Assembly (NCBI GenBank): GCA_937872175.1
Contig: CALMPI010000010.1
Location: 124,001 to 188,000, forward strand
Direction of reading: 5' to 3'
Length of the DNA stretch: 64,000 bases
DNA from: an uncultured Flavobacteriales bacterium
Lineage (GTDB): Bacteria > Bacteroidota > Bacteroidia > Flavobacteriales_F > PHOS-HE28
Shown: one piece after another, positions 29,585-57,683 of the stretch
Numbering within the stretch: the first letter of the stretch is position 1
Layout: every line of letters starts with the position of its first letter
Program-made: the position numbers and the translations under genes
Notes under the pieces: model-generated
The model's database searches: none
What the model was told of the DNA's origin: nothing
The model's input: the letters and a program-made list of their open reading frames with translations, nothing else

Positions 29585-32293
29585 TCAGCGTTTCACCACG
29601 CGACCGGTCGCGGTCAAAGCTCCTTCCACCCGGTACAGGTAGCTGCCTGAGGCCAGGTCACGCGCATCGACGCGCAGCTGGCCCGATGCGGGTGCCTCGA
29701 GCCGCCGCACCACACGTCCCTGCAGGTCCATCAGGTGAAGGACGACCCGCTCTCCGGCCTTCGCCGCGTAGGTCATCACGAAATGGTCGTCGAACGGATC
29801 GGGCATCACCGAAAGACCGGCAGCTCCTTCCAGGCCGGCCACGGCGGTGCTGAACACGCAAGCGTCCGTCAGGAAGGTCAGCGGTGACGCGTAGTCCTCA
29901 TTCACCACGTCAATCACCTGGTCGATGCAGATGATGTTGTCCGGGTTCACGAAATGGACACGGAACAAGGGAGTGAACCCGTTGTGCCGCTCGAACAAGC
30001 TGTCCACGTAAGAGAGGCCGATGACATGGGCGGTGCTGCCGTTGAACGCGGGTACGATGGGGAAGTCCATCGGGTCCGCCAGGTTGTCCACGCCGGTGAT
30101 GGTGATCCCGCTGAAGCGGAGCTCGTAGCCCACCAGCTTCCGGTTCGGGTTGCGCACATGAACGTCCAGGTGGCCCGCACCGAGGTCGAACGCGCCGATG
30201 GTGAAGGTCACCGAATCATAGATGTTCACCATGTCAAGGAGCGGGAAGCTGCAGCGGGTGTCCATCAGGCTGCTGTCGCCGAGCAGGTTGGCCTGATGGC
30301 AATGGGCGATCAGTGCGGCATCGGCCACGGTAAGGGTGCCATCGTCGTTCACATCCGTGCAGGGAGCGGCGGCCAGCGAGGCGTTCAGGATGCCGGCCAC
30401 ATAGCCGGCCGCATCGATGCTGTCGTTGTCCGCATCCACGTCCAGGTCGCCGATGAGCCGGGTCCCGGCGCACACGCCTTCACAATCGATCTGGGCGTTC
30501 CCGTAGATCTGCCCGAGACAGTCGACGTAGGACGGGCAGTTCTGCTGCACCGATACGACGAGGTTGGGGGTGCGCGTGATCTCGATGCAGGCCTGCCCCC
30601 AGTTGTTGTTGATGTCCATTTCGAACCGGCCCAGGGCGTCGGGGCTGTTGTCCCAGTTGGTCCGAACCACGAGCGTGTATCGTCCGTCCGGTACGTCGGT
30701 GATGTCGATCCATTGGCAGGAAAGGCCGCTGCTGTAAATGTCACCACAGCCCATGCTGATGCCCATGTTGCTGCAGCCGTACTGGGCCGATCCGCCGCCG
30801 CTGCATTCAAGGTCCATCACGCAGAAGCCGTTCTTGAATCCCTGGGCCATCTGCTGGCCGATGCTGTCATACAGGAGGTATTCGGCGTACCCCTCGTAGT
30901 GCCAGTGGTTGTGGCAGGCGCCGTAGACGAACTGGTCGGGGTTGGCGCCGGGGTTGCCGATGTAGTAGTCCGTGAAGCCGATGTTCTGGATATGGGTGGT
31001 GAAGCGCACCAGTTCGCGCGTGCCGAACCCGGCCAGACAGCCTTCCTGGATGTAGCAGTCGTTCGCGTTCACCACCATCGTCTGGGCATAGATGGAGTTC
31101 TGTAACACGTCGCTGCGCACGATCAGGTCCGGACCCAGCGGGCAGTTCGGGTCGCCCCATGGGATGCAGCTCCCGTCGTCCACTGCGGCGAGCGGGTTGA
31201 AATTGCAAGAAGCGGGATCCGTACAGCCGGCGATGGGGCCCGCGTACTCCAAGGTCCATTCGATGCCGGTGCCCGCACAGCTCGTGTCCGTATCACCGAT
31301 CCTGACGTAGTAGGTCATCCCCGCCTGCAACAAGGCGTTCACCTGGGCCTGGAGGCCGCAACCGCCCTGGTCGTTGTCATAGTAGATGGTGCCGATGTTG
31401 GTGTCGTCCCAGATCAGTCCGATGCAGTGGTCGTAGACCCAGACGCGGGTGTCGCACGTGTTCGTCCCGCAGGTGGTGATGCTGTACACCCCGTTGCTGT
31501 CCGGGACGAAGATGTACCAAGTGTCATTCCCGGGGGTGTTGTGCTGACCCTGGACCACCGTGTCGGGCGACAGGCAGCCGAAGCCCGGCGGGCAGTTCCA
31601 TTCCACACGGTCGGTGAAGTCGAAGTTCCCGCCCTGGGCGATCAATGCGCCATCCACATAGAGCCAGTAACCGCCCGGCGCGAAGATCCCGTCGCCATAG
31701 GTGTCATGCATCGTGAACACCAGGCAGTCCGAGGTGTCCACGCACAAGGCCGCGCCGGTGGAGGTGCCTGAGGCCAGCACCACGCCGTTGCCGTTGCGCA
31801 GGTCCCAGCTCATCTCGTTGGGATAGGCGTCGGGCACGATGTTCACCTGGACGGCCACTTCACCGGCCGCACAGCTCGGCGGCGGTGGCGGGATGTTCGC
31901 GTTCAGGCTCCACACCACCGTGTCCGTCGCACAGGCGTTCTGATAGTCGCCCACCCGGATGAAGATCTCCTGGCCTCCGGTGAGGTTGAGCACCAGGCTG
32001 CTCTGCAGGCTGCATGCATCATCATTATAACCAAGGGCGTTCAAGCCCTGCTCGTTGGTCACCAGGCCGGTGCAGTAGGTGTACGCCCAAAGCTTGGTAT
32101 CACAGCTGCTCAGCCCGCAGGTGCTCAGCGTGAACTGCCCGGTGGCCGGCGCCGTGTACACGTACCAGGCATTGTCGAATGGAGCGGTATGCGTGCCGGG
32201 GGCCACAGGGATCGCCGTGGAGCACGTGGCGCCGGGCTGGGCCTGAGCGGTAAGGGTGACGAGGGCGAACAGAAGGGGTAGAGGCGTGCGCAT
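29585..32293 (-). CDS. T9SS-exported lysyl-oxidase-like copper enzyme with dockerin-like and cohesin-like segments
   Basis: A 902-residue exported protein. After the signal peptide (LLFALVTLTAQAQ) come two beta-sandwich repeats with Cys pairs (about 25-135 and 235-350). The lysyl-oxidase core spans about 390-590: copper ligands His461, His463 and His465 in CHNHWHYEGYAEY; Lys487 in GFKNGFC; Tyr520 in GDIYSSGL, followed by CQWIDITDV. Lys487 and Tyr520 match human LOX Lys320 and Tyr355, which form the quinone cofactor. Next is a dockerin-like pair (GDLDVDADNDSIDAAGY and DVNDDGTLTVADAALIAHC), then a cohesin-like beta domain (KLVGYELRFSGITITGV). A type A T9SS domain ends the protein (MPDPFDDHFVMTY to GRVVKR). 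Oxidation of peptidyl lysine for surface cross-linking is inferred. Confidence 0.85.
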   Translation of the reverse strand: MRTPLPLLFALVTLTAQAQPGATCSTAIPVAPGTHTAPFDNAWYVYTAPATGQFTLSTCGLSSCDTKLWAYTYCTGLVTNEQGLNALGYNDDACSLQSSLVLNLTGGQEIFIRVGDYQNACATDTVVWSLNANIPPPPPSCAAGEVAVQVNIVPDAYPNEMSWDLRNGNGVVLASGTSTGAALCVDTSDCLVFTMHDTYGDGIFAPGGYWLYVDGALIAQGGNFDFTDRVEWNCPPGFGCLSPDTVVQGQHNTPGNDTWYIFVPDSNGVYSITTCGTNTCDTRVWVYDHCIGLIWDDTNIGTIYYDNDQGGCGLQAQVNALLQAGMTYYVRIGDTDTSCAGTGIEWTLEYAGPIAGCTDPASCNFNPLAAVDDGSCIPWGDPNCPLGPDLIVRSDVLQNSIYAQTMVVNANDCYIQEGCLAGFGTRELVRFTTHIQNIGFTDYYIGNPGANPDQFVYGACHNHWHYEGYAEYLLYDSIGQQMAQGFKNGFCVMDLECSGGGSAQYGCSNMGISMGCGDIYSSGLSCQWIDITDVPDGRYTLVVRTNWDNSPDALGRFEMDINNNWGQACIEITRTPNLVVSVQQNCPSYVDCLGQIYGNAQIDCEGVCAGTRLIGDLDVDADNDSIDAAGYVAGILNASLAAAPCTDVNDDGTLTVADAALIAHCHQANLLGDSSLMDTRCSFPLLDMVNIYDSVTFTIGAFDLGAGHLDVHVRNPNRKLVGYELRFSGITITGVDNLADPMDFPIVPAFNGSTAHVIGLSYVDSLFERHNGFTPLFRVHFVNPDNIICIDQVIDVVNEDYASPLTFLTDACVFSTAVAGLEGAAGLSVMPDPFDDHFVMTYAAKAGERVVLHLMDLQGRVVRRLEAPASGQLRVDARDLASGSYLYRVEGALTATGRVVKR

Positions 32294-32570: not shown

Positions 32571-34952
32571 CTAGCGCATCAAGGTGATGTGGCCAAAGCC
32601 CTCCTTGACATCGCCCGCGATGGCCTTCACCCTGTAGCGGTACACGTAAACGCCGGTAGGTAGCACCGATCCGTTGACGGTGCCATCCCAGGCCAGGCCC
32701 ACCTCGTTCGCCTCGAACAGGGTGGCCCCCCAGCGGTCGTGCACGCGGATCCAGAATTCCTTGACCCCCGTGCCCATTGCCTGAAAGGTCTCGTTGTACC
32801 CATCACCGTTCGGGGTGAAGCTGTTGGGGATGTACAGGTGGAACTCCGGGTCCACCAGCAGCGTTCGCGACGTGCTGTCCCTGCAGCCCAGGGTATCGGC
32901 GATCATCAGCTGCACCTCATAAAGCCCCGGCTCCGGGTAGATGACCTCGGGGTTCTTGTCCTGGCTTTCCAGTCCGGCGACGCCGAAGTCCCACCACCAC
33001 TGCGTGGCTCCCAGCGAAAGGTCCATGAAGAAAATGGGTGCATTGTTCACCCAGTAGGTGCCGTCCACGGCGAACGAGGCCATGGGCGCATTGACCCCCA
33101 ACCCGCTCTGGTCGGTGGCCGTGATGCCGCACGCATCGGTGACCGTGAGGGTGTAGATGGTGTTGCTGTTGGGGTGGGCCGCCAGCGTGTCGGCCGTGCC
33201 CCCTGGCGCCCACAGGTAGCTGTACGGTTCAAGGCCCAGGACCGGCAACGCGCGAAGGATCGCCGTGTCGCCGATGCAGATCACCGTATCGGGCGCGATG
33301 CTGACCCGCACCGTGTCATAGGCCACGGTGACGGTCACAATGTCGGCGGTGACCTCCCCGCACAGGTCGGTGACGGTCACCGACCAACTGGCCGTGATGG
33401 CCGGTGCCACCTGAGCCGTTGGAAGCGTGCCCAGACCGCCGCTCCAGGTGTAGGTGTATCCCGGGGTACCACCCTGCACCACCGCGGTCAACTGCACCGG
33501 CGTCTCCGGACAGAGCACCACGACATCGTTCTGGATGGTCACCACGAGCGGTTGCGGAACGGGCACGGTGACGGTCACCTGATCGCTCTGCGTCACCACG
33601 CCGCAATCGTCGGTCACCGTCAGGGTGTACGTGGTGGTCTGGGTCGGAGCGACCCACCCTCCCAGCTGCCCGTCAGGCACGCCCTGGTCCCAATCCAGGG
33701 TGTAGTTCCCGAACCCTCCGGTGACAGTGGCCGAAATGAGGGTGCTGTCCACGCATTGGATGGTGACATCATTGCCGAGCACCACGTCGATGTCCGGCGC
33801 CTCTTCGATGAGGATGACCATGGACACGGTGTCACCACCGCAGGCGGTCTCGTTGATCACCATGAGGATGATCGATTCCTGCCCCTCGGTGACGGCATCG
33901 AGGATGGCGCTGAACTGCACGTTGATGGAATCCTGTCCGGGTTGAAAGATCACCTGGTCGGGCACGGCGGTGAAGTCCGCGCCTTCGGTGGCCGTTCCGC
34001 TGATCAGGATGTCCACCGTATCGGGGTCCACGAGCGGACCGCCGCGTACAAGGAAGAGCGATGCTGTTCCGCAGCCCTCGTAGAACAGGCTGTCGATGCC
34101 ACCGGAGACCACCTCGCCCACGATGGCCACCTGGTTGCTTTGAAAGCTGCCGGCCTCCAGGAAGACCGCGCTGTCCCACACCTGGTCGTTCGCATCGCCC
34201 ACCACGATCTTGATGTGGTAGGTCTCCCCGCAGATCACCTGCGCCAAGGCCTGCATCACCACGGTGAGCCCGTCGTACTGCACGTAGAACGGGTTGGCGT
34301 TGTAAGGCGGAGTGCCTCCGTCGCCGTTGTCCACGTAGTACTGCGGGTTCACCACATCGTTCACGGTGTTGATCGTCACCGCATCGGCGGTACCCGGGAT
34401 GAGGGCGATGTTGACGGCGTTGTTGCTGAACGGTCCGTTGAAGCCTGGTCCGCTCAGGAAGAAGCCGAACGCATCGTTGATGCTGTTGACGAACTCGAGG
34501 TACTCCTCCGAGGCGAAGACGAAATTGAACTTCAGCGAATCCCCGGTGGGCACGAAGTCGAACTCAAGCACCGCACAATCGTTCACGTCCTGGATGGAGG
34601 GCTGGCTCTGTTGTGCGAGCAGGAACAGGTCGGGGTCCTGAACGCTGAAGCCGGTGACGGGCACCGAAGAGCTCCCCGAGTCGTTCGGGCCGAGGGCATT
34701 GGTGATGCCGCCCGTGGCCAGGATCACACCGGCCGGTATACCGACGTTGGCGTTCGCGCTGTTGAACTCACCAGCTTGAGCGGATACCATGTTGCCGGGA
34801 AGCCCGTTGAACGTGATGTTGCTGACCGTGACCCCGCCGCCCAAGAGGACGTTCTGCACCAGCTGTGCCGGGGTCTGTGTGTTGGTGAGCACCAACTGCG
34901 CACGCATCGGATGCAGCGCCAGCAGCGACACGACCAGGAGAGCGGTCCGCAT
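32571..34952 (-). CDS. Choice-of-anchor L surface protein with CHU_C (T9SS type B) C-terminus
   Basis: A 793-residue exported protein. I start at ATG 34952 (MRTALLVVSLLALHPMRAQ signal peptide); ATG 34973 is possible. The N-terminal domain is the choice-of-anchor L type: GIPAGVILATGGITNALGPN, FVFASEEYLEFVNSINDAFG, FFLSGPGFNGPF. Then come a Calx-beta-like segment, three or four PKD/Ig-like repeats, a final PKD domain (YWVNNAPIFFMDLSLGATQW) and the CHU_C domain (YIPNSFTPNGDGYNETF to GHITLMR). CHU_C domains direct T9SS export and are linked to SprA/PorP-dependent adhesins such as SprB. A role in adhesion or gliding is inferred. Confidence 0.9.
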   Translation of the reverse strand: MRTALLVVSLLALHPMRAQLVLTNTQTPAQLVQNVLLGGGVTVSNITFNGLPGNMVSAQAGEFNSANANVGIPAGVILATGGITNALGPNDSGSSSVPVTGFSVQDPDLFLLAQQSQPSIQDVNDCAVLEFDFVPTGDSLKFNFVFASEEYLEFVNSINDAFGFFLSGPGFNGPFSNNAVNIALIPGTADAVTINTVNDVVNPQYYVDNGDGGTPPYNANPFYVQYDGLTVVMQALAQVICGETYHIKIVVGDANDQVWDSAVFLEAGSFQSNQVAIVGEVVSGGIDSLFYEGCGTASLFLVRGGPLVDPDTVDILISGTATEGADFTAVPDQVIFQPGQDSINVQFSAILDAVTEGQESIILMVINETACGGDTVSMVILIEEAPDIDVVLGNDVTIQCVDSTLISATVTGGFGNYTLDWDQGVPDGQLGGWVAPTQTTTYTLTVTDDCGVVTQSDQVTVTVPVPQPLVVTIQNDVVVLCPETPVQLTAVVQGGTPGYTYTWSGGLGTLPTAQVAPAITASWSVTVTDLCGEVTADIVTVTVAYDTVRVSIAPDTVICIGDTAILRALPVLGLEPYSYLWAPGGTADTLAAHPNSNTIYTLTVTDACGITATDQSGLGVNAPMASFAVDGTYWVNNAPIFFMDLSLGATQWWWDFGVAGLESQDKNPEVIYPEPGLYEVQLMIADTLGCRDSTSRTLLVDPEFHLYIPNSFTPNGDGYNETFQAMGTGVKEFWIRVHDRWGATLFEANEVGLAWDGTVNGSVLPTGVYVYRYRVKAIAGDVKEGFGHITLMR

Positions 34953-35016
34953 GAAGCCGCAAGGTACGTCCATCCGGTGCTCCACGGGACGCTCGGCGGT
35001 GGCAGGCCTTCGTGGG

Positions 35017-35024
35017 TAAACTTG
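35017..35024 (+). promoter_or_regulatory. Candidate -7 promoter element for priA
   Basis: TAAACTTG, seven bases upstream of the ATG at 35032. Use of this promoter would give a nearly leaderless priA mRNA. Confidence 0.35.
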
Positions 35025-35031
35025 TGCGCCC

Positions 35032-37482
35032 ATGCCGCGCTTTGCCGATGTCATCCTTCCTGCGGCCGTCCCGGGTGTGTTCACGTACGCCTTGACGGAG
35101 GAGCTTGGCCCGGTGTTGCCCGGCATGCGCATCGTGGTACCCTTCGGCGCAGGGCGGAAGCTCTATGGCGGCCTGGTGATGCGCGTGCATGACGCCCGGC
35201 CCGAGGGACGGAACGTTCGGCCTGCGCTGAGTGTGCTGGATACCGCGCCGGTGCTGGCCCCGGTGCACCTGCAGCTCTGGCAGCGCGTGGCCGACCACTA
35301 CCTGTGCTCGATGGGCGAGGTGATGCTCGCCGCCCTGCCCGGCCCGTTGGTGCTGACGAGCGAAACGCGGGTGACGGCCACGGCCCTCACGGCCGAGCAT
35401 TCGGCCCGGACACCGCGGTCGGCCCTGTTGCTGGATGCGCTCGAGCAGCGGCCCGCGATCACCTTGGGCGAAGCAGGCGAACTGCTTCAGGTGAAGGATC
35501 CGATCCGCGCCATGAAGCAGTTGCTCGACGAAGGGGCCGTGGCGCTGGAGGAGGAGCTGCGGTCGCGACCTGTGGAACGTCTGGTCCGTCATGTGGAACT
35601 GGCGCCGGATGCCGGTGACGAGGCCGCGCTGCACGGCTGGTTCGACCGGCTTGCACGCGCCCCCAGGCAGTTGGCGTTGCTGATGAAGGGCATCGAGCTG
35701 GGTCGCTGGCTGGACCACGGGGGCGGGCCGGTGGCGGAGGCGCGCCTGCTGAAGGCCGCCGGCGCCGAACGCAAACACGTGGAGGAATTGGTGCGCAAGG
35801 GTCTGTTCACCGTGACCGAACGACCGGCGGACCGCCCACCGGCACGACCGGGCAGTGGCTCCCCCACCCTGTCGCCTGCCCAGGCCACCTGCCTGGCGGA
35901 GATCGACGCCGCCTTGCGCGACCATCGCTGCTGCCTGCTCCAGGGGGTCACCGGCTCGGGCAAGACCGAGGTGTACGCGCATCTCATCGAGCGTGCCGTC
36001 GACCAGGGCGGCCAGGTGCTGTACCTGTTGCCGGAGATCGCGCTCACCACCCAGCTCATCGCCCGGCTCCGCGCGCGCTTCGGCGATCGCGTCAGCGTGT
36101 TCCACAGCCGCCTCAGCGCCCGCCAGCGCGCCGATCTGTGGAGCGGCATCCACCGCGATCCGTCAGCGCATCCCATCGTGGTGGGCGCGCGTTCGGCGCT
36201 CTTCCTTCCCTTCCATCACCTGCGGCTGATCATCGTGGACGAGGAGCACGACCCGTCCTACAAGCAACAGGATCCCTCGCCGCGCTACAATGCCCGGGAC
36301 ATGGCCCTGGTGCTCGGCGAGCTCATGGACGCCCCCGTGGTGCTGGGCTCCGCCACCCCGTCCATGGAGACGATGTACAACGCGCGCCAGGGGAAGTACG
36401 GCCACACCCGATTGCTTGAACGCTTCGGCGACAGCGTGCTGCCCAGTGTGGAGCTGATCGACCTGCGTGAGGCCCACAAGCGCAAACGCATGCAGGGGCA
36501 CTTCACGCCCGAACTGCTGGAGGCCGTTCAACGCACCGTGGAGCGGCGCGATCAGGTGATCCTGTTCCAGAACAGACGCGGCTACGCCCCGGTGTGGCAA
36601 TGCGAACAATGTGCGCACGTGCCGAACTGCGCGCATTGCGACGTGAGCCTCACCTACCACAAGCGGAGCCATGAGCTCCGCTGCCACTATTGTGGCCGGG
36701 GCTACCCGCCCCCCACGGCCTGCCCTTCATGTGGCAGCCGCAGGCTGAAGATGATCGGCCTCGGCACCGAGCGCATCGAGGAGGAGCTGGCCGTGGCCCT
36801 GCCCGAGGTGCGTGTGGCCCGGCTCGACCAGGACACCGCTCGCGGCAAGAACGCCGTCGAGCGGCTCATGCACGACTTCGCCGAAGGGCGGATCGATGTG
36901 CTCGTCGGCACCCAGATGGTGACCAAGGGGCTCGACATGGAGCGGGTGAACACCGTGGGCATCCTCAGCGCCGACCGACTGTTGCGCTTCCCTGATTTCC
37001 GCGCGCACGAACGAGCCTTCCAGCTCATGGGCCAGGTGGCGGGCCGCAGCGGCCGGCGCGGTGTGCAGGGGCGTGTGCTCATCCAGGCGTTCGATGTGGC
37101 CCACCCCGTGCTCGGGCACGTGCTCACCCACGATGTCGACGGCTTCTACGCCCGCGAACTGGGCCATCGTCAGGCCCATGGCTACCCGCCCTTCTCACGC
37201 TTGGTGCGCTTCACCTTGAAGCACCGTTCCGAGGAGCGGGTGGAACAGGCCGCGCGTACGCTGGTGGACCTGCTTCGCCCCGACCTGGGTGATCGGGTCC
37301 TCGGGCCGGAGACGCCGGCGGTGGCCTGGGTGCGGGACCAGCACATCCGCAACGTGTTGGTGAAACTGGCCCGCGGGGCCTATGCCCGCGAGAAGGAACG
37401 CGTACGGACCGCCTTGGAGCACCTGTCGGACGCACTGCCGCAAGGAAGGGTGCGGCTGATCGTGGACGTGGACCCGGCCTGA
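35032..37482 (+). CDS. priA: Primosomal protein N' (replication restart helicase PriA)
   Basis: An 816-residue DEXH helicase that reloads the replisome at stalled forks. Present are the N-terminal 3'-OH-binding domain (FADVILPAAVPGVFTYAL), Walker A LLQGVTGSGKTEVYAHLI near residue 305, DEEH box IIVDEEHDPSYKQQ, and GSATPS. The zinc-binding insertion has four Cys pairs (CEQCAHVPNCAHC, CHYCGRGYPPPTACPSCG). The helicase motifs GTQMVTKGLDMERVNTVGIL and QVAGRSGRRG are also present. Complete length. It is flanked by two minus-strand secreted-protein genes and ends five bases from the convergent esterase gene. Confidence 0.97.
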   Translation: MPRFADVILPAAVPGVFTYALTEELGPVLPGMRIVVPFGAGRKLYGGLVMRVHDARPEGRNVRPALSVLDTAPVLAPVHLQLWQRVADHYLCSMGEVMLAALPGPLVLTSETRVTATALTAEHSARTPRSALLLDALEQRPAITLGEAGELLQVKDPIRAMKQLLDEGAVALEEELRSRPVERLVRHVELAPDAGDEAALHGWFDRLARAPRQLALLMKGIELGRWLDHGGGPVAEARLLKAAGAERKHVEELVRKGLFTVTERPADRPPARPGSGSPTLSPAQATCLAEIDAALRDHRCCLLQGVTGSGKTEVYAHLIERAVDQGGQVLYLLPEIALTTQLIARLRARFGDRVSVFHSRLSARQRADLWSGIHRDPSAHPIVVGARSALFLPFHHLRLIIVDEEHDPSYKQQDPSPRYNARDMALVLGELMDAPVVLGSATPSMETMYNARQGKYGHTRLLERFGDSVLPSVELIDLREAHKRKRMQGHFTPELLEAVQRTVERRDQVILFQNRRGYAPVWQCEQCAHVPNCAHCDVSLTYHKRSHELRCHYCGRGYPPPTACPSCGSRRLKMIGLGTERIEEELAVALPEVRVARLDQDTARGKNAVERLMHDFAEGRIDVLVGTQMVTKGLDMERVNTVGILSADRLLRFPDFRAHERAFQLMGQVAGRSGRRGVQGRVLIQAFDVAHPVLGHVLTHDVDGFYARELGHRQAHGYPPFSRLVRFTLKHRSEERVEQAARTLVDLLRPDLGDRVLGPETPAVAWVRDQHIRNVLVKLARGAYAREKERVRTALEHLSDALPQGRVRLIVDVDPA

Positions 37483-50600: not shown

Positions 50601-53600
50601 ATGAATTGTAGCACTTCTCCTCGACCACCGCGGCGAACGCCGTGGTGGCACCCGGCCTCACTGGCCGTGGGCCTCATCGCGCTGCTTGGCGCGCAAGAGG
50701 CCCGCGCCACCACCTGCGCAGGCGCCACTGTGCTGGCCTACCAGGACTACCCCGCCTTCTCCATCGCGTGCGGTGCCACGAACGACATCACCGGCGCCAA
50801 CACGGTGGCCTGCGGCAGTGCGAACTACCGCGGTGGCACCGAAGCCGTGTACACCTTCACGTCGCTGGGCTCCGGCTCGGCTTCCTTCGCCTACAACGGC
50901 GTGACGTGGGTGGGCATGTTCCTGTACGACGGCTGCCCCACCACCGGTGGCGCCTGCGTGGCGAGCATCACCAGTTCGGCGGCCTCCAAGACGCTGAACG
51001 CGACCATCGCCAACGGGGTCACCTACTTCCTGGTGATCGACACGTGGCCTACGCCCAACAGCCCCTGCCCGGGCACGGTGGCCATCACCCTGCCGCCGGC
51101 GGCCGCCCCTTGTGCGGGTCAGCCCACGCCGGGCAACACCACCGGCCCGCTCGCGGCCTGCAGCGGAGCGAACTTCACGCTCGGCCTGCAGAACGCCACC
51201 ATCGGCAGCGGCGTGTCCTATCAGTGGCAGTTCGACAACGGCGGCGGCTGGACCAACTTCGGCACGGACGCGGCCACCCAGAACACGACCCTGACGGTGC
51301 CCACGAGCTACCGCTGCGAAGTGACCTGCGCCGGCAACGGCACGGGCACCAGCACCCCGATCACGGTGAACCTGAACACCGACGCCTGCCAGTGCATCGT
51401 CTACGCGGCCTCCAACGCCACCAATGCTGCGGATACGAAGATCGACAGCATCAAGGTGAACGGTGTGGGGTACGGCACGTTGGCCACGACCTGCGAGACC
51501 TACACCTTCAACACCAGCCCGGGCTTCAGCCTGGAGCAGGGAAGCCCCGCCACCGTGCGGGTGCGCAACGGTTCGTGCAGTGGATTCCACTACACGGCCT
51601 ACGCCGCGCTCTATGCTGATTTCAACGGGGACGGCGACTTCGCCGATGTCGGGGAGACGCTCGGCACCTTCGGCCCCACCACGGCGCTGAACACCGTACC
51701 GGACTTCAACATCCTGATCCCGCCTGCGGCGAACCCGGGCCCCACCCGGTTCCGGGCCGTGCTGGCGGAGGCTGGCGCGCCCCCTCCCGCAACGGGAACC
51801 TTTACCTATGGAGAGACCGAGGATTTCTGCGTGGACATCACCTTCGCTCCTCCCTGCACCGGCACACCTACGCCGGGCAACACCCTCACCACGCTGTCGA
51901 GCGTCTGCCCGTCGCAGAACTTCACCCTCAGCCTGCAGAACGTCACGCTGGGCACCGGGGTCACGTACACCTGGGAAAGCTCGCCCGACAACGTGAACTG
52001 GGGACCTGCCGGCGGCCCCAACAGCCCGAACTGGACCCTGACGCAAGCCAGCGACACCTACTACCGCTGCCTGGTGGATTGTGCCGGCAACGGCAGTGCG
52101 ACGAGCACGGAAGTGCTGGTCACCATGGGCAGCGCCTGCCAGTGCGCGGCGTACTGCGCCACCAACAACTTCGGTGACGGTGCCTGCATCACCTCCGTGG
52201 ACCTGAACACCTTGTCCAGCACCACGGCGGCCTGCGTGCCTTCGCCGGGCTACACGTACAAGACGGAGACCACCACATTGACCAAGGGGATCACCTACCC
52301 CCTGACGGTGAATGCGGATGCCAACGTGTATGGCGGCGCCATCATGTCGGTGTGGTTCGACTGGAACAACGATGCCACCTTCGCCACGGATGAATGGGCG
52401 CAGGTCTTCACCACCGGCACCACCGGCACGGTGAACATCGACGTGCCGTTGACGGCCTTCGAGGGCACCATCCGCATGCGGGTGCGCAGCCGCGGCCAGG
52501 GCAACCCCAACGGTGCGGGCGACGCCTGCACCTCCATGGGCAGTGGCACCACGGAGGACTTCTGCATCACCGTGGTCCCCGCACCGCTCTGCTCGGGCAC
52601 TCCCGCCCCGGGCAACACCACCGGTCCGGCCTCTGTGTGCCCCAACGCGAACTTCGTGGTGGGTGTGCAGAACCCGCCGGCCTTCGCCGGCATCACCTAC
52701 CAGTGGTACGCCAGCACCGACGGCGTGAACTATTCGCCGGTGGGTGGCAACGCGCCCACGTACAACACCTCGCAGGCCACGGATACGTGGTACTACTGCG
52801 ATGTGACCTGCACGGAGCCCGGTGGTGGCACGGCCGCCACGCTTCCCCTCCAGGTGGGCATGTCCTCCTTCCTGAGCTGCTACTGCACGGCGGGCGTAGG
52901 CCCCACGAGCACGGCGGACAGCCAGGTGCAGAGCGTGAACCTCACGGGAGCCCCCGGCAGCATCAGCTATACCACCACCTGCCCCGGCACGCTCGGGGTG
53001 CAGGACCTCACGGGCCTCACGGCCGACCTGCTGCTGGGTGATTCCTACACGGTGACGGTGGACTTCGGCACCTGCGGCGGCTCCTATTTGGGCGCCGGCG
53101 AGGTGTGGATCGACTATGACCACAGCGGCACCTTCGACCCCACCGAATCCCTCGGCACGCAGAGCGGTACGCCGCCCGGTGTGGCCGCGATCAACTTCAC
53201 GGTACCGGGCACCGCGCTGCTGGGCGTGACGCGCATGCGCGTGATGCAGCAGGAGGGTGGCGCCAACCCGCTCAGCCCGTGCGCCGGTTACCTCTGGGGA
53301 TCGGTGATGGACTTCAGCGTGAACGTCAACACGCCGGTGCCGTGCAACGGACAACCGAGCCCGGGCAACACCCTGGCGAGCGAGTCCTTGGTCTGCGCGC
53401 CCGACGTCATCACGCTGAGCCTGCAGAACGCCACGATCGGCACGGGTGTCAGCTACCAGTGGGAGACCTCGCCGGACAACCTGAACTGGACGCCGGCCGT
53501 CGGCGCCCCGAACAGCTCGGTGTGGAACACCACCCAGAGCACGGACACCTGGTACCGCTGCGTGGTGACCTGCTCGGGCTTCGGCAACGATGCCAGCGTA

Positions 53601-56600
53601 CCGGTGCAAGTGCTGATGGATACGCCCAGCGCGTGCATCTGCACCCCGACCTACGACTTCGGCATCCAGTCCGGCGACCTGATCAGCGAGGTGGAGATCA
53701 TCGGCACCACGCTGCTGAACAACACCGGTACGGCCACGACCCCGAACATTGCCTACACCTACTACACGGGCCAGCCGAACTACACGGCTGACCTGGTGGC
53801 GGGCACGACCTACCAGATCGAGGTCACGATCGGCAGCTTCACGAACCAGAACATCGCGGTCTGGATCGACTTCAACGAGAACGGGACCTACGAGACCCCG
53901 GGCGAGCGTGTGGGCTTCTTCGGCCCGATCAACACGGCGTTCGGCTCGGCGACCTTCCCGCTGACCCTGCCCTGCAACCCGGTCCCCGGCGTGAAGCGCA
54001 TGCGGGTGCGTGGCGTCTATGCCACCACGCCGAACACGATCGACCCCTGCCTCAACTACGGCTGGGGTGAGACGGAGGATTACGACGTGACCATCCAGCC
54101 CCCGCCGCCCTGCCCTGCTCCGGGCAACCTGCAGGCGGGCAACGCCACCGGCAGCACGGTGGACCTGAGCTGGAACGTGGCCTGCGTGGAGACCGATTGG
54201 ACCATCGAATGGGGTGCGGCCGGCTTCTCGCTCGGCACGGGCACTCAGGTCGCGGTGAACACCACGCCCTTCCTGCAGCTCGTCGGTCTGTCGGCCGGTG
54301 TGGCCTATGAGGCTTACGTGCGTGCGGAGTGCGGTGGCAACGGATCCAGCACCTGGGTGGGCCCGGTGGGCTTCAGCACCTGCAACGGGGTGTGCGCCGA
54401 CGCGATCACGGCCGTGCTGGGTGTGAACACCACGGGCACGATGGACTGCGGCAACGGTGCGAGCAACGCACAGGCCGGCGGTGCGGTGAACGCGCGTTGG
54501 TTCACCTACACGGCGACGGGCACCGGCGTGCTCACGGCCTCCGCCTGCGGAGCGGTGAACACCGGGAACAACGACACGCGTCTCACGATCCACGGTGGCG
54601 CCTGCGGTGGCCTTACGGTGCTGGCCTCCAGCGACGACGCCTGCACCTGGAGCGGTGGCGGTTCGGCCTTTGCCAGCACGGCCTCGGTGTTCGTGAACAA
54701 CGGCCAGCAGGTCTTCATCGAATGGGATGACCGCTGGAACCCGGCGGGCTTCAACTGGGAGCTGACCTTCGCGCCCTGCACGCCCGACCCGGCGGACCTG
54801 TGCGTGAACAAGGACCCGACGCTGAACCCGATCTCCATCGGCAACCCGGCGGTGGTGTTCACCGGCAACCTGGACTGCCAGACGCAGGACGGCATCTCGC
54901 CGAACCCCTTCCCCGAAGCGACCGGTTGGGAGTGGGTGACCTTCGAGCTGACCCAGTGCGCCAACGTGCAGATCAGCTACTGCGGCACGGCGAACTTCCA
55001 GTATGGAGCGCTGAACATGTACGGGGACTGCGGCACGCTGTTCATCAACTCGCAGAACTTCGACTTCGTCACCTGCGTGGACGGCAACCCGACCATCTTC
55101 TTCGAGGACCTGGCCCCGGGCTTCTACTACTACCCGGTGCTGTGGTCGCTGCCGCTGAACATGGTGGGACCGTACCAGATCAACGTGACGGCGACCGCGC
55201 CCACGAACCCGTGCGCGCCGAACATCAACTGCGGTGGTGCGCTGCCGTTGACCTGCCCGGGCTCCGTGGTGGGCAACACGAACAACCAGTTCCCGACCCT
55301 GCCGGCCAACGCCTGCCCCTTCACGGGCGGCGCCACCAGCGGTGGTTCGCTCTGGTACAGCTACACGGCCGCTGCGGATGAGAACATCATCCTCAGCACC
55401 TGCGGCATCACCACGGTGTTCAACACGCGCATCAGCGTGTTCACCGGTCCGGACTGCAACACGCTGACCTGCCTCACCATGAGCGATGACTTCGGCGGTG
55501 CCTGCACCGACCGCAGCCAGCTGGAGTTCTTCGCCCAGACCGGCCAGACCTACTACATCGCCGTTCACAGCCCGTCACCGTTCTTCGATGGCGCGTTCGA
55601 ACTGCAGGTGGGTTGCGGCCCGGTGTGTCCGCGTCCGACCAACGACGACTGCTCGGGTGCCGAAGCGCTCACCAGCTTCCTGGCCGACGGTTCGGGAACC
55701 CCGACCTCGGGCGACAACAGCTGCGCGCAGAACGACGCGTACACCACCTGCAGCCCGGTGCTGAACAACCAGGGCATGTGGTACAGCTTCAACAGCGGCG
55801 TGAACACCATCCACGTGCTTGACCTTCTGGGCAGCGCGCAGAACGGTTCGCTCACCGCCAGCCAGTTGAACTACGCGCTCTTCAGCGGTGGCTGCAACGG
55901 CAACCTGGGCGCCGCCGGCCAAGTGGCCTGCGACGACGACGGCGACGGCGCGGACATCGTGCTCACCGGCCTGACGACCAACACGGACTACCTGCTGTAC
56001 GTGTACAACCCGGGCAGCACGGGCTTCGAGGGCACCTTCGAGGTGATGATCGAACACCCCGGTCTGTACGACGCGGGCATCAGCGACGTGCTGTATCCCG
56101 CGGGCCTGGTGTGCACCTCCTTCCTGGAGCCCCAGGTGGAGCTGACCAACTTCGGTGAGGCGACGCTGACCAGCGTGGACATCGTGTACGACCTGAACGG
56201 TGGCGGACCCAACCAGGGCCCCTTCGTGTACACCTGGACGGGCAGCCTGCCCTACCAGGGAACGGAGATCGTGAACCTGCCCGGCTGGACGGCCCCCTAT
56301 GGCATCCACACGTTCAACGTGACGGTGCAGAACCCGAACGGCCAGCCCGATGAGATCGCCGGCAACAGCGCCATCGCCGAAGGCGGCGTGGACGTGTCCG
56401 GCGAGACCGTGATCGTGCGCATCACCACGGACAACGACCCGACCGGTATCTTCTGGGAGATCCAGGACCAGGCCTTCCAGAGCGTGGCCGTCTCCCCGGC
56501 TTACGGCGCGGGCAACACCACGGTGGATGTGACGTCCTGCCTGAGCACGCTGAACGGCAACTGCTTCAGCTTCTACCTGTTCGACTTCCTGGGCGACGGC

Positions 56601-57683
56601 CTCAGCGGAACGGGCAACGGCAACGGCAGCTGGAGCCTGCATACGGGCAATGGCGGAACGCTGTTGGGTGACTCCTTCGACGGCACCATCAACGGTGTCC
56701 TGACCCCCAACAGCCCGCCGGCGACCCCCGGTTACGTGAACGGTCACGAGTTCTGCCTGCCGGCCGGCCCCAGCACCCTGCAAGCGGGTGAGTGCGGCAT
56801 CTTCACCAACCTGCTGCAGAACAAGGTGTACGCGACCTCCGTCCCCGGTGTCACCACCTACCAGTTCGAGTTCAGCGACCCCGACGCGGGCTTCCGCCGT
56901 CGCATCGCCGTGCCGCGCAACTGGGTGAAGTTCTCCGAGATGGTGACCAGCCCGCTGTTGCCCGGTGTGCGCTACTTCACCCGCGTCCGTGTGGACCAGG
57001 GTGCGTCCGGCCTCACCGACGACCGCTTCGGCACGGGTTGCGAGATGGGTCTTGACCCGACCGCCGTGCCGGGCTGCACCGGCCTGGTGGACGACATCGG
57101 CTTCCCGGCCCACAGCTGCGGCGTGATCAAGACCTTCGGAGGTTCCGACAAGGTCTTCGCGCAGCCTGTGGTGGGGGCCACGCAGTACCGCTTCCGCTTC
57201 GAGAACATCAACGAAGGCTACCTGCGTACGATCATCCGTCCCAACTACATCTGCCCGCTGAGCTGGGTGACCCTGCCCCTGCAGAACGGTGTCACCTACG
57301 ACGTGAGCGTGGAGGTGCTGTACAACGGCCAGTGGAGCGGCTACTGCGGCCCGGTGTGCCAGGTGACCATCCTGAACCCGCCGGCCATGGCCCAGCAGCG
57401 TAATGCCGAGGTGGTGACCAACAGCGGTCTGCAGGCCTGGCCCAACCCGGTGCGCGACGGCGTGGTGAACCTCCGCCTGGACGGCCTCACCGCCGGCACC
57501 CAGCGCGTGACCCTCGAGGTGTTCGACCTCACCGGCAAGCGCGTGGTGAACCAGGAGATGGAGAACAGCGGCCCCGTGTTCAACACGGTGCTTGAGCTCG
57601 ACGGCTTCGCCGGTGGCGTGTACATGGTCCACCTCAACGTGGACGGTGCCATCCATCAGCAGCGCATCAGCGTGGTGAAGTAG
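50601..57683 (+). CDS. Giant modular T9SS surface protein with Ig/GEVED repeats
   Basis: A 2360-residue exported protein. A long signal region (to about residue 37, ALLGAQEARA) precedes a PPC-like domain. Then come four Ig-plus-GEVED modules (50-kDa total scale, residues about 170-1169), each with YQWxxxxDNxxW Ig core and YGETEDFCV-type end, and DFNGDGDFADVGE calcium-type acidic loops. A fibronectin III domain follows (VDLSWNVACVETDWTIEWG), then three or four PPC/beta-sandwich domains (WFTYTATGTGVLTASACG, LWYSYTAAADENIILSTCG), a CARDB-like region and a type A sorting domain (AWPNPVRDGVVNLRL to HQQRISVVK). It is probably a surface adhesin. Preceded by a long leader and closed by a strong terminator. 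Confidence 0.92.
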   Translation: MNCSTSPRPPRRTPWWHPASLAVGLIALLGAQEARATTCAGATVLAYQDYPAFSIACGATNDITGANTVACGSANYRGGTEAVYTFTSLGSGSASFAYNGVTWVGMFLYDGCPTTGGACVASITSSAASKTLNATIANGVTYFLVIDTWPTPNSPCPGTVAITLPPAAAPCAGQPTPGNTTGPLAACSGANFTLGLQNATIGSGVSYQWQFDNGGGWTNFGTDAATQNTTLTVPTSYRCEVTCAGNGTGTSTPITVNLNTDACQCIVYAASNATNAADTKIDSIKVNGVGYGTLATTCETYTFNTSPGFSLEQGSPATVRVRNGSCSGFHYTAYAALYADFNGDGDFADVGETLGTFGPTTALNTVPDFNILIPPAANPGPTRFRAVLAEAGAPPPATGTFTYGETEDFCVDITFAPPCTGTPTPGNTLTTLSSVCPSQNFTLSLQNVTLGTGVTYTWESSPDNVNWGPAGGPNSPNWTLTQASDTYYRCLVDCAGNGSATSTEVLVTMGSACQCAAYCATNNFGDGACITSVDLNTLSSTTAACVPSPGYTYKTETTTLTKGITYPLTVNADANVYGGAIMSVWFDWNNDATFATDEWAQVFTTGTTGTVNIDVPLTAFEGTIRMRVRSRGQGNPNGAGDACTSMGSGTTEDFCITVVPAPLCSGTPAPGNTTGPASVCPNANFVVGVQNPPAFAGITYQWYASTDGVNYSPVGGNAPTYNTSQATDTWYYCDVTCTEPGGGTAATLPLQVGMSSFLSCYCTAGVGPTSTADSQVQSVNLTGAPGSISYTTTCPGTLGVQDLTGLTADLLLGDSYTVTVDFGTCGGSYLGAGEVWIDYDHSGTFDPTESLGTQSGTPPGVAAINFTVPGTALLGVTRMRVMQQEGGANPLSPCAGYLWGSVMDFSVNVNTPVPCNGQPSPGNTLASESLVCAPDVITLSLQNATIGTGVSYQWETSPDNLNWTPAVGAPNSSVWNTTQSTDTWYRCVVTCSGFGNDASVPVQVLMDTPSACICTPTYDFGIQSGDLISEVEIIGTTLLNNTGTATTPNIAYTYYTGQPNYTADLVAGTTYQIEVTIGSFTNQNIAVWIDFNENGTYETPGERVGFFGPINTAFGSATFPLTLPCNPVPGVKRMRVRGVYATTPNTIDPCLNYGWGETEDYDVTIQPPPPCPAPGNLQAGNATGSTVDLSWNVACVETDWTIEWGAAGFSLGTGTQVAVNTTPFLQLVGLSAGVAYEAYVRAECGGNGSSTWVGPVGFSTCNGVCADAITAVLGVNTTGTMDCGNGASNAQAGGAVNARWFTYTATGTGVLTASACGAVNTGNNDTRLTIHGGACGGLTVLASSDDACTWSGGGSAFASTASVFVNNGQQVFIEWDDRWNPAGFNWELTFAPCTPDPADLCVNKDPTLNPISIGNPAVVFTGNLDCQTQDGISPNPFPEATGWEWVTFELTQCANVQISYCGTANFQYGALNMYGDCGTLFINSQNFDFVTCVDGNPTIFFEDLAPGFYYYPVLWSLPLNMVGPYQINVTATAPTNPCAPNINCGGALPLTCPGSVVGNTNNQFPTLPANACPFTGGATSGGSLWYSYTAAADENIILSTCGITTVFNTRISVFTGPDCNTLTCLTMSDDFGGACTDRSQLEFFAQTGQTYYIAVHSPSPFFDGAFELQVGCGPVCPRPTNDDCSGAEALTSFLADGSGTPTSGDNSCAQNDAYTTCSPVLNNQGMWYSFNSGVNTIHVLDLLGSAQNGSLTASQLNYALFSGGCNGNLGAAGQVACDDDGDGADIVLTGLTTNTDYLLYVYNPGSTGFEGTFEVMIEHPGLYDAGISDVLYPAGLVCTSFLEPQVELTNFGEATLTSVDIVYDLNGGGPNQGPFVYTWTGSLPYQGTEIVNLPGWTAPYGIHTFNVTVQNPNGQPDEIAGNSAIAEGGVDVSGETVIVRITTDNDPTGIFWEIQDQAFQSVAVSPAYGAGNTTVDVTSCLSTLNGNCFSFYLFDFLGDGLSGTGNGNGSWSLHTGNGGTLLGDSFDGTINGVLTPNSPPATPGYVNGHEFCLPAGPSTLQAGECGIFTNLLQNKVYATSVPGVTTYQFEFSDPDAGFRRRIAVPRNWVKFSEMVTSPLLPGVRYFTRVRVDQGASGLTDDRFGTGCEMGLDPTAVPGCTGLVDDIGFPAHSCGVIKTFGGSDKVFAQPVVGATQYRFRFENINEGYLRTIIRPNYICPLSWVTLPLQNGVTYDVSVEVLYNGQWSGYCGPVCQVTILNPPAMAQQRNAEVVTNSGLQAWPNPVRDGVVNLRLDGLTAGTQRVTLEVFDLTGKRVVNQEMENSGPVFNTVLELDGFAGGVYMVHLNVDGAIHQQRISVVK
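51108..54107 (+). repeat. Four tandem Ig-GEVED modules inside the giant T9SS gene
   Basis: Modules run 51108-51851, 51852-52586, 52587-53339 and 53340-54107, each 735-768 bases. Each begins with a PCxGxPxPGN-like linker (CAGQPTPGN, CTGTPTPGN, CSGTPAPGN, CNGQPSPGN), continues with an Ig-like domain, and ends with a GEVED-type domain (GETEDFCVD, GTTEDFCIT, GSVMDFSVN, GETEDYDVT). Protein similarity is moderate, so this is an old duplication. Confidence 0.75.

Follow-up and report, generated by a model that had tools for sequence, protein, structure and literature searches.

The protein of 902 amino acids encoded at 29585–32293 on the minus strand is probably a copper amine oxidase that is secreted and belongs to the lysyl oxidase (LOX) family. 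Its dockerin and cohesin probably dock within one chain or between LOX molecules, and the enzyme may modify or cross-link surface or extracellular proteins. The gene lies in a window of 64,000 nucleotides, meaning the whole stretch of DNA that was analysed (positions 124,001 to 188,000 of contig CALMPI010000010.1, assembly GCA_937872175.1), from an uncultured Flavobacteriales bacterium (PHOS-HE28). An earlier note on this DNA had proposed an enzyme of the lysine tyrosylquinone (LTQ) type that is exported to the cell surface, and this proposal agrees with the LOX residues, the predicted LOXL2 fold, the C-terminal sorting tail of the type IX system (T9SS) and the SprA protein of the same genome. 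We know of no established role for lysyl oxidases in bacteria. The features of the gene and its neighbours are as follows.

32571–35132, minus strand: upstream T9SS type B surface protein (choice-of-anchor L, Calx-beta, PKD, CHU_C); synteny in five close relatives
32228–32293, minus strand: putative signal peptide, about residues 1–22 (MRTPLPLLFALVTLTAQAQPGA); read straight from the sequence
31139–32227, minus strand: N-terminal cysteine-rich modules, residues 23–385; from the alignment
30587–31132, minus strand: lysyl oxidase catalytic domain, residues 388–569; PF01186 (E 1.1e-33) and LOXL2 (5ze3)
30899–30913, minus strand: predicted copper-binding HNHWH, H461/H463/H465; aligns with LOXL2 HxHxH, 81/81 sequences
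30833–30835, minus strand: Lys487, predicted LTQ precursor; aligns with LOXL2 Lys, 81/81
30734–30736, minus strand: Tyr520, predicted LTQ precursor; aligns with LOXL2 Tyr, 81/81
30296–30466, minus strand: dockerin, residues 610–666; profile matches to solved dockerins, PF00404 in relatives, position in its own genome, conservation
29837–30250, minus strand: cohesin-fold domain, residues about 682–819; Foldseek and VIA-align matches to cohesins, position
29588–29806, minus strand: T9SS type A sorting tail, residues 830–902; TIGR04183 (24.4 bits, cut-off 23), SprA in the genome
28579–29568, minus strand: downstream lipoprotein-like gene, family not recognised; synteny in five close relatives

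Catalytic domain, export and predicted chemistry

Animal lysyl oxidase is a copper enzyme that cross-links collagen. The Pfam model of this family matches the window protein with 117.1 bits (curated threshold 20.4), and the only real match in a phmmer search of PDB sequences is human LOXL2 (5ze3; E 7e-26), on which HNHWH falls on HRHYH, K487 on the Lys and Y520 on the Tyr, together with eight cysteines. An AlphaFold model of residues 372–832 (pLDDT 82) matches LOXL2 in Foldseek (E 3e-15), the next match being a cohesin, and in VIA-align the nearest known structure is again human LOXL2 (5ze3_A; Z 21.3, 2.7 Å over 204 residues), which gives the protein a predicted LOX fold. The earlier note had taken a wide separation of Lys487 and Tyr520 in a model as grounds for refutation; this is an unfair test because the two LTQ-forming residues are already 16.6 Å apart in the solved LOXL2 precursor (PMC9694262).

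A scan of a genome collection gave 431 encoding stretches. Of these, 80 were retained; most belong to bins of Flavobacteriales or other Bacteroidota, and a few carry Crocinitomicaceae, Saprospiraceae and Chitinophagaceae labels. The histidines H461, H463 and H465, predicted to bind copper, and the putative LTQ pair K487 and Y520, at a spacing of 33, are invariant in all 81 sequences (80 homologues and the window protein), a set that is biased at K487 by one search pattern that included the lysine; the same catalytic residues occur in a separate set gathered with the Pfam model. Loss of the LTQ pair in close orthologues, sought as a refutation, was thus not found in any of the 81. Residues 372–832 contain 20 cysteines, every one of which is conserved in at least 90% of these sequences; given this and the five invariant residues, the features seen in the protein are not due to chance. 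It is highly improbable that the domain is a catalytically dead LOX retained for adhesion: the protein lacks the fourth histidine of animal LOX, like other bacterial LOX (PMC4448552), but the five catalytic residues never vary in the 81 sequences and were also found by motif scan in six members of a divergent third class of LOX (see below).

The window protein shares with animal LOX and human LOXL2 the catalytic fold, HxHxH, the Lys and Tyr of LTQ, most disulfide cysteines and CQW(I/V)DITDV, whereas it has neither SRCR domains nor the fourth His, and carries a bacterial export tail as well as a dockerin and a cohesin after the catalytic domain. HTU-LOX of the archaeon Haloterrigena, in which the same residues are present, is active; it refolds best when Cu2+ is supplied, and 3-aminopropionitrile (BAPN) inhibits it (PMC6452851). 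Since the catalytic residues are kept and this archaeal enzyme is active, amine oxidase chemistry is likely for the window LOX. Copper on H461, H463 and H465 would lead to oxidation of Y520, which would join K487 to form the LTQ cofactor, and the enzyme would convert primary amines, either lysines in proteins or smaller amine compounds, to aldehydes, with release of H2O2 and ammonia.

The T9SS tail claimed in the earlier note is recognised by the NCBIfam model TIGR04183 just above its cut-off and is weak in Pfam. SprA is encoded in the genome (2566 bits), which indicates that a type IX system is present there. By its C-terminal sorting domain and the SprA of its genome, the window LOX is classed as a T9SS type A cargo, and the type IX system would export it to the cell surface. 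In one marine clade (L051, L059, L063, L066, L067 and others), a short dockerin-like end (DVNGDGxVNVADVLLVLSAFGTxC) stands in place of the T9SS tail. The N-terminal region (residues 23–385) consists of a DxYPNE...DTYGDG module flanked by two similar repeats (CDTKLWAY / CDTRVWVY type) and followed by GCTDPASCNFNPLA; a search of PDB sequences with these modules gave no match.

Dockerin and cohesin modules

A cohesin is the usual binding partner of a dockerin, and in other systems the two modules pair in trans. Both modules that the earlier note had suspected after the catalytic domain hold up. Segment 610–666 is a type I dockerin (PF00404) by sequence, with two 12-residue calcium loops, D/N ligands and a match to the family profile. 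Profiles of the segment match solved dockerins (CelS 2mte at E 6.8e-5, 1daq, 2vn6 and more), PF00404 in relatives recognises 19 of 26 members and 33 of 53, and D616, D627, D647, D651 and D658 in the two loops are invariant in the 81 sequences; the window copy alone scores 12.9 bits, which is under the Pfam threshold. The domain that follows is a cohesin by predicted fold and is unrecognisable by sequence: PF00963 was found neither in the genome nor in the region of residues about 682–819, which also has no PDB sequence match, whereas the fold of this region matches cohesins (Z about 11 in VIA-align; Foldseek E 1e-5). In a model of residues 606–822 (pLDDT 90, pTM 0.86), the first eleven structure matches are all cohesin-bearing, and cohesins fill the top ranks (best match Z 11.3, 2.9 Å over 115 residues).

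The earlier note had envisaged docking to separate partners and had advised a search for them. Within the genome, no gene other than the window gene and a second LOX gene on contig C36 carries the LOX-type cohesin, and the LOX-type dockerin profile has only one weak match outside LOX (22.9 bits, contig C2). Among 147 relatives, all 59 LOX genes of the window class have a LOX-type cohesin, and a single further cohesin of this type is found in a gene without LOX; in 58 genomes, the 32 matches to the LOX-type dockerin are all inside LOX genes, and no LOX of the window class is without a dockerin. The modules therefore travel with LOX almost without exception, and the search gave no support for separate partners. 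A cellulosome, in the sense of a scaffoldin with several cohesins together with dockerin-bearing enzymes, was sought in the genome and rejected. The exception among the 147 genomes is a LOX-less protein (L138 1571–4195) with an N-terminal dockerin and what appear to be several tandem cohesin-like repeats.

It is accordingly quite unlikely that the two modules recruit LOX to separate partners, or gather such partners, in the manner of a cellulosome. Both modules are real, pairs of this kind act in trans in other systems, and the LOX-less relative would suit such a role, but the genome has no Pfam cohesin, the LOX-type cohesin is confined to its two LOX genes, co-occurrence with LOX is near-complete in relatives, and the dockerin–cohesin fragment is predicted to fold as one unit. 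The modules are thus probably not there for separate partners, although free partners that have diverged could go undetected by the profiles. The near-exclusive co-occurrence with LOX and the high pTM favour a pairing in which both modules belong to one chain or to different LOX molecules, and a calcium-dependent clip of this kind fits best; the pTM and pLDDT exceed what is expected of two freely moving domains, although the conserved linker and cysteines could account for a high pTM. Most likely, the dockerin would bind calcium and dock on a cohesin, either in its own chain or in an adjacent LOX molecule, resulting in a calcium-set rigid stalk or a LOX assembly instead of recruitment to a scaffold.

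With the type I dockerins (PF00404) and cohesins (PF00963) of cellulosomes and of non-cellulosomal proteins (Archaeoglobus 2xdh, Clostridium perfringens 2jh2), the modules share the duplicated calcium loops and the jelly-roll fold of the cohesin. In contrast to these systems, the window protein has the two modules together on a single chain, immediately behind an oxidase; no scaffoldin was detected in the genome, and the cohesin cannot be recognised by sequence. If the pair does work within one chain, this familiar interaction would have a use outside scaffold building.

Possible substrates, neighbouring genes and proposed surface role

The most likely role of the window LOX would be, tentatively, covalent modification or cross-linking of a surface or extracellular protein, and surface cross-linking is plausible. 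A possible but doubtful alternative is a broad-specificity surface amine oxidase that scavenges nitrogen, or produces H2O2 and aldehydes to act against competitors, and that does not take part in cross-linking. The substrate range of the archaeal LOX covers many primary amines, among them taurine, glycine, aminoglycosides and polymyxin (PMC6452851), and type IX surface proteins in the genus are lysine-poor with or without LOX, both of which suit this alternative; against it, the elaborate, fixed multi-domain layout suggests a structured protein substrate, as does the CotH-kinase neighbour in one clade.

The type IX proteins of the window (29585–32293, 32571–35132 and 50601–57683) contain less than 1% lysine, compared with about 2–8% in cytoplasmic and membrane neighbours. 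The idea that LOX leaves its mark as a loss of lysine from surface proteins was considered and rejected: the median is 1.24% for 29 type IX proteins from three genomes that have LOX and 1.59% for 27 from three that lack it, which is not a significant difference (p 0.18). Throughout the genus, type IX cargo is poor in lysine, with no link to LOX. Because of this, and because the giant surface protein at 50601–57683, a suggested substrate, has only 13 lysines in 2360 residues, bulk self-cross-linking of such proteins is not favoured, though a few lysines are enough for cross-links.

Directly downstream of LOX and on the same strand, 33 of the 80 loci encode a type IX protein that combines lamin-tail (LTD), chitobiase-C and CotH-kinase domains (L048, L053, L071 and 30 others), and the LOX and CotH frames nearly touch or overlap. 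An S46 peptidase lies upstream of LOX at 37 of the 80. On the LOX tree, the CotH linkage needs two changes; as it is stable in one clade plus one extra branch, it is counted as a lineage trait. No CotH-kinase gene stands beside the window LOX gene. Where present, this neighbour suggests a setting of surface-protein modification.

A more elaborate version, in which the dockerin of each LOX binds the cohesin of the next in a calcium-switched manner, so that LOX polymerises on the surface and modifies and cross-links a bacterial extracellular matrix, with the CotH kinase in some lineages, is unlikely. If true, it would parallel animal LOX with secreted kinases.

Bacterial LOX, including those of Bacteroidetes, were reported as mostly single-domain proteins (Grau-Bove et al., 2015, PMC4448552), and the sole archaeal LOX studied was termed cryptic. 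The window LOX has the same residues as these prokaryotic enzymes (PMC4448552; HTU-LOX, PMC6452851), of which Bacteroidetes are among the listed sources; it differs in its fixed LOX–dockerin–cohesin triad, N-terminal modules and T9SS tail. In the open literature searched, no paper was found on LOX with a dockerin, with a bacterial type IX system or with CotH. The conserved triad and the CotH-kinase gene downstream thus appear undescribed in that literature, and the triad architecture may be listed in subscription papers or in databases such as InterPro. The conserved architecture and the operon-like kinase neighbour provide concrete handles on the substrate and setting of LOX.

Other LOX genes of the genome

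The genome has three LOX genes. The second (L004 11164–14646, contig C36) encodes a MAM domain, LOX, dockerin and cohesin; sponge LOXP1 is likewise reported with MAM (PMC4448552). The third (L004 873–3422) is divergent, keeps the catalytic residues and has no dockerin. Less than 14 kb of C36 holds both of these genes, which are separated by an M36 peptidase. The third class (L004 873–3422; L129 7055–9166; L130 5410–8142), which is common in Bacteroidia, retains HxHxH, Lys and Tyr, with a much longer Lys–Tyr spacing and no recognised dockerin. Four adjacent secreted proteins at L004 873–16676 on C36, two of which are LOX, have a common C-terminal domain (...VKYxGxxNDRDPILVNIGGxVPTxxRxEQLP), which is perhaps an undescribed sorting tail.
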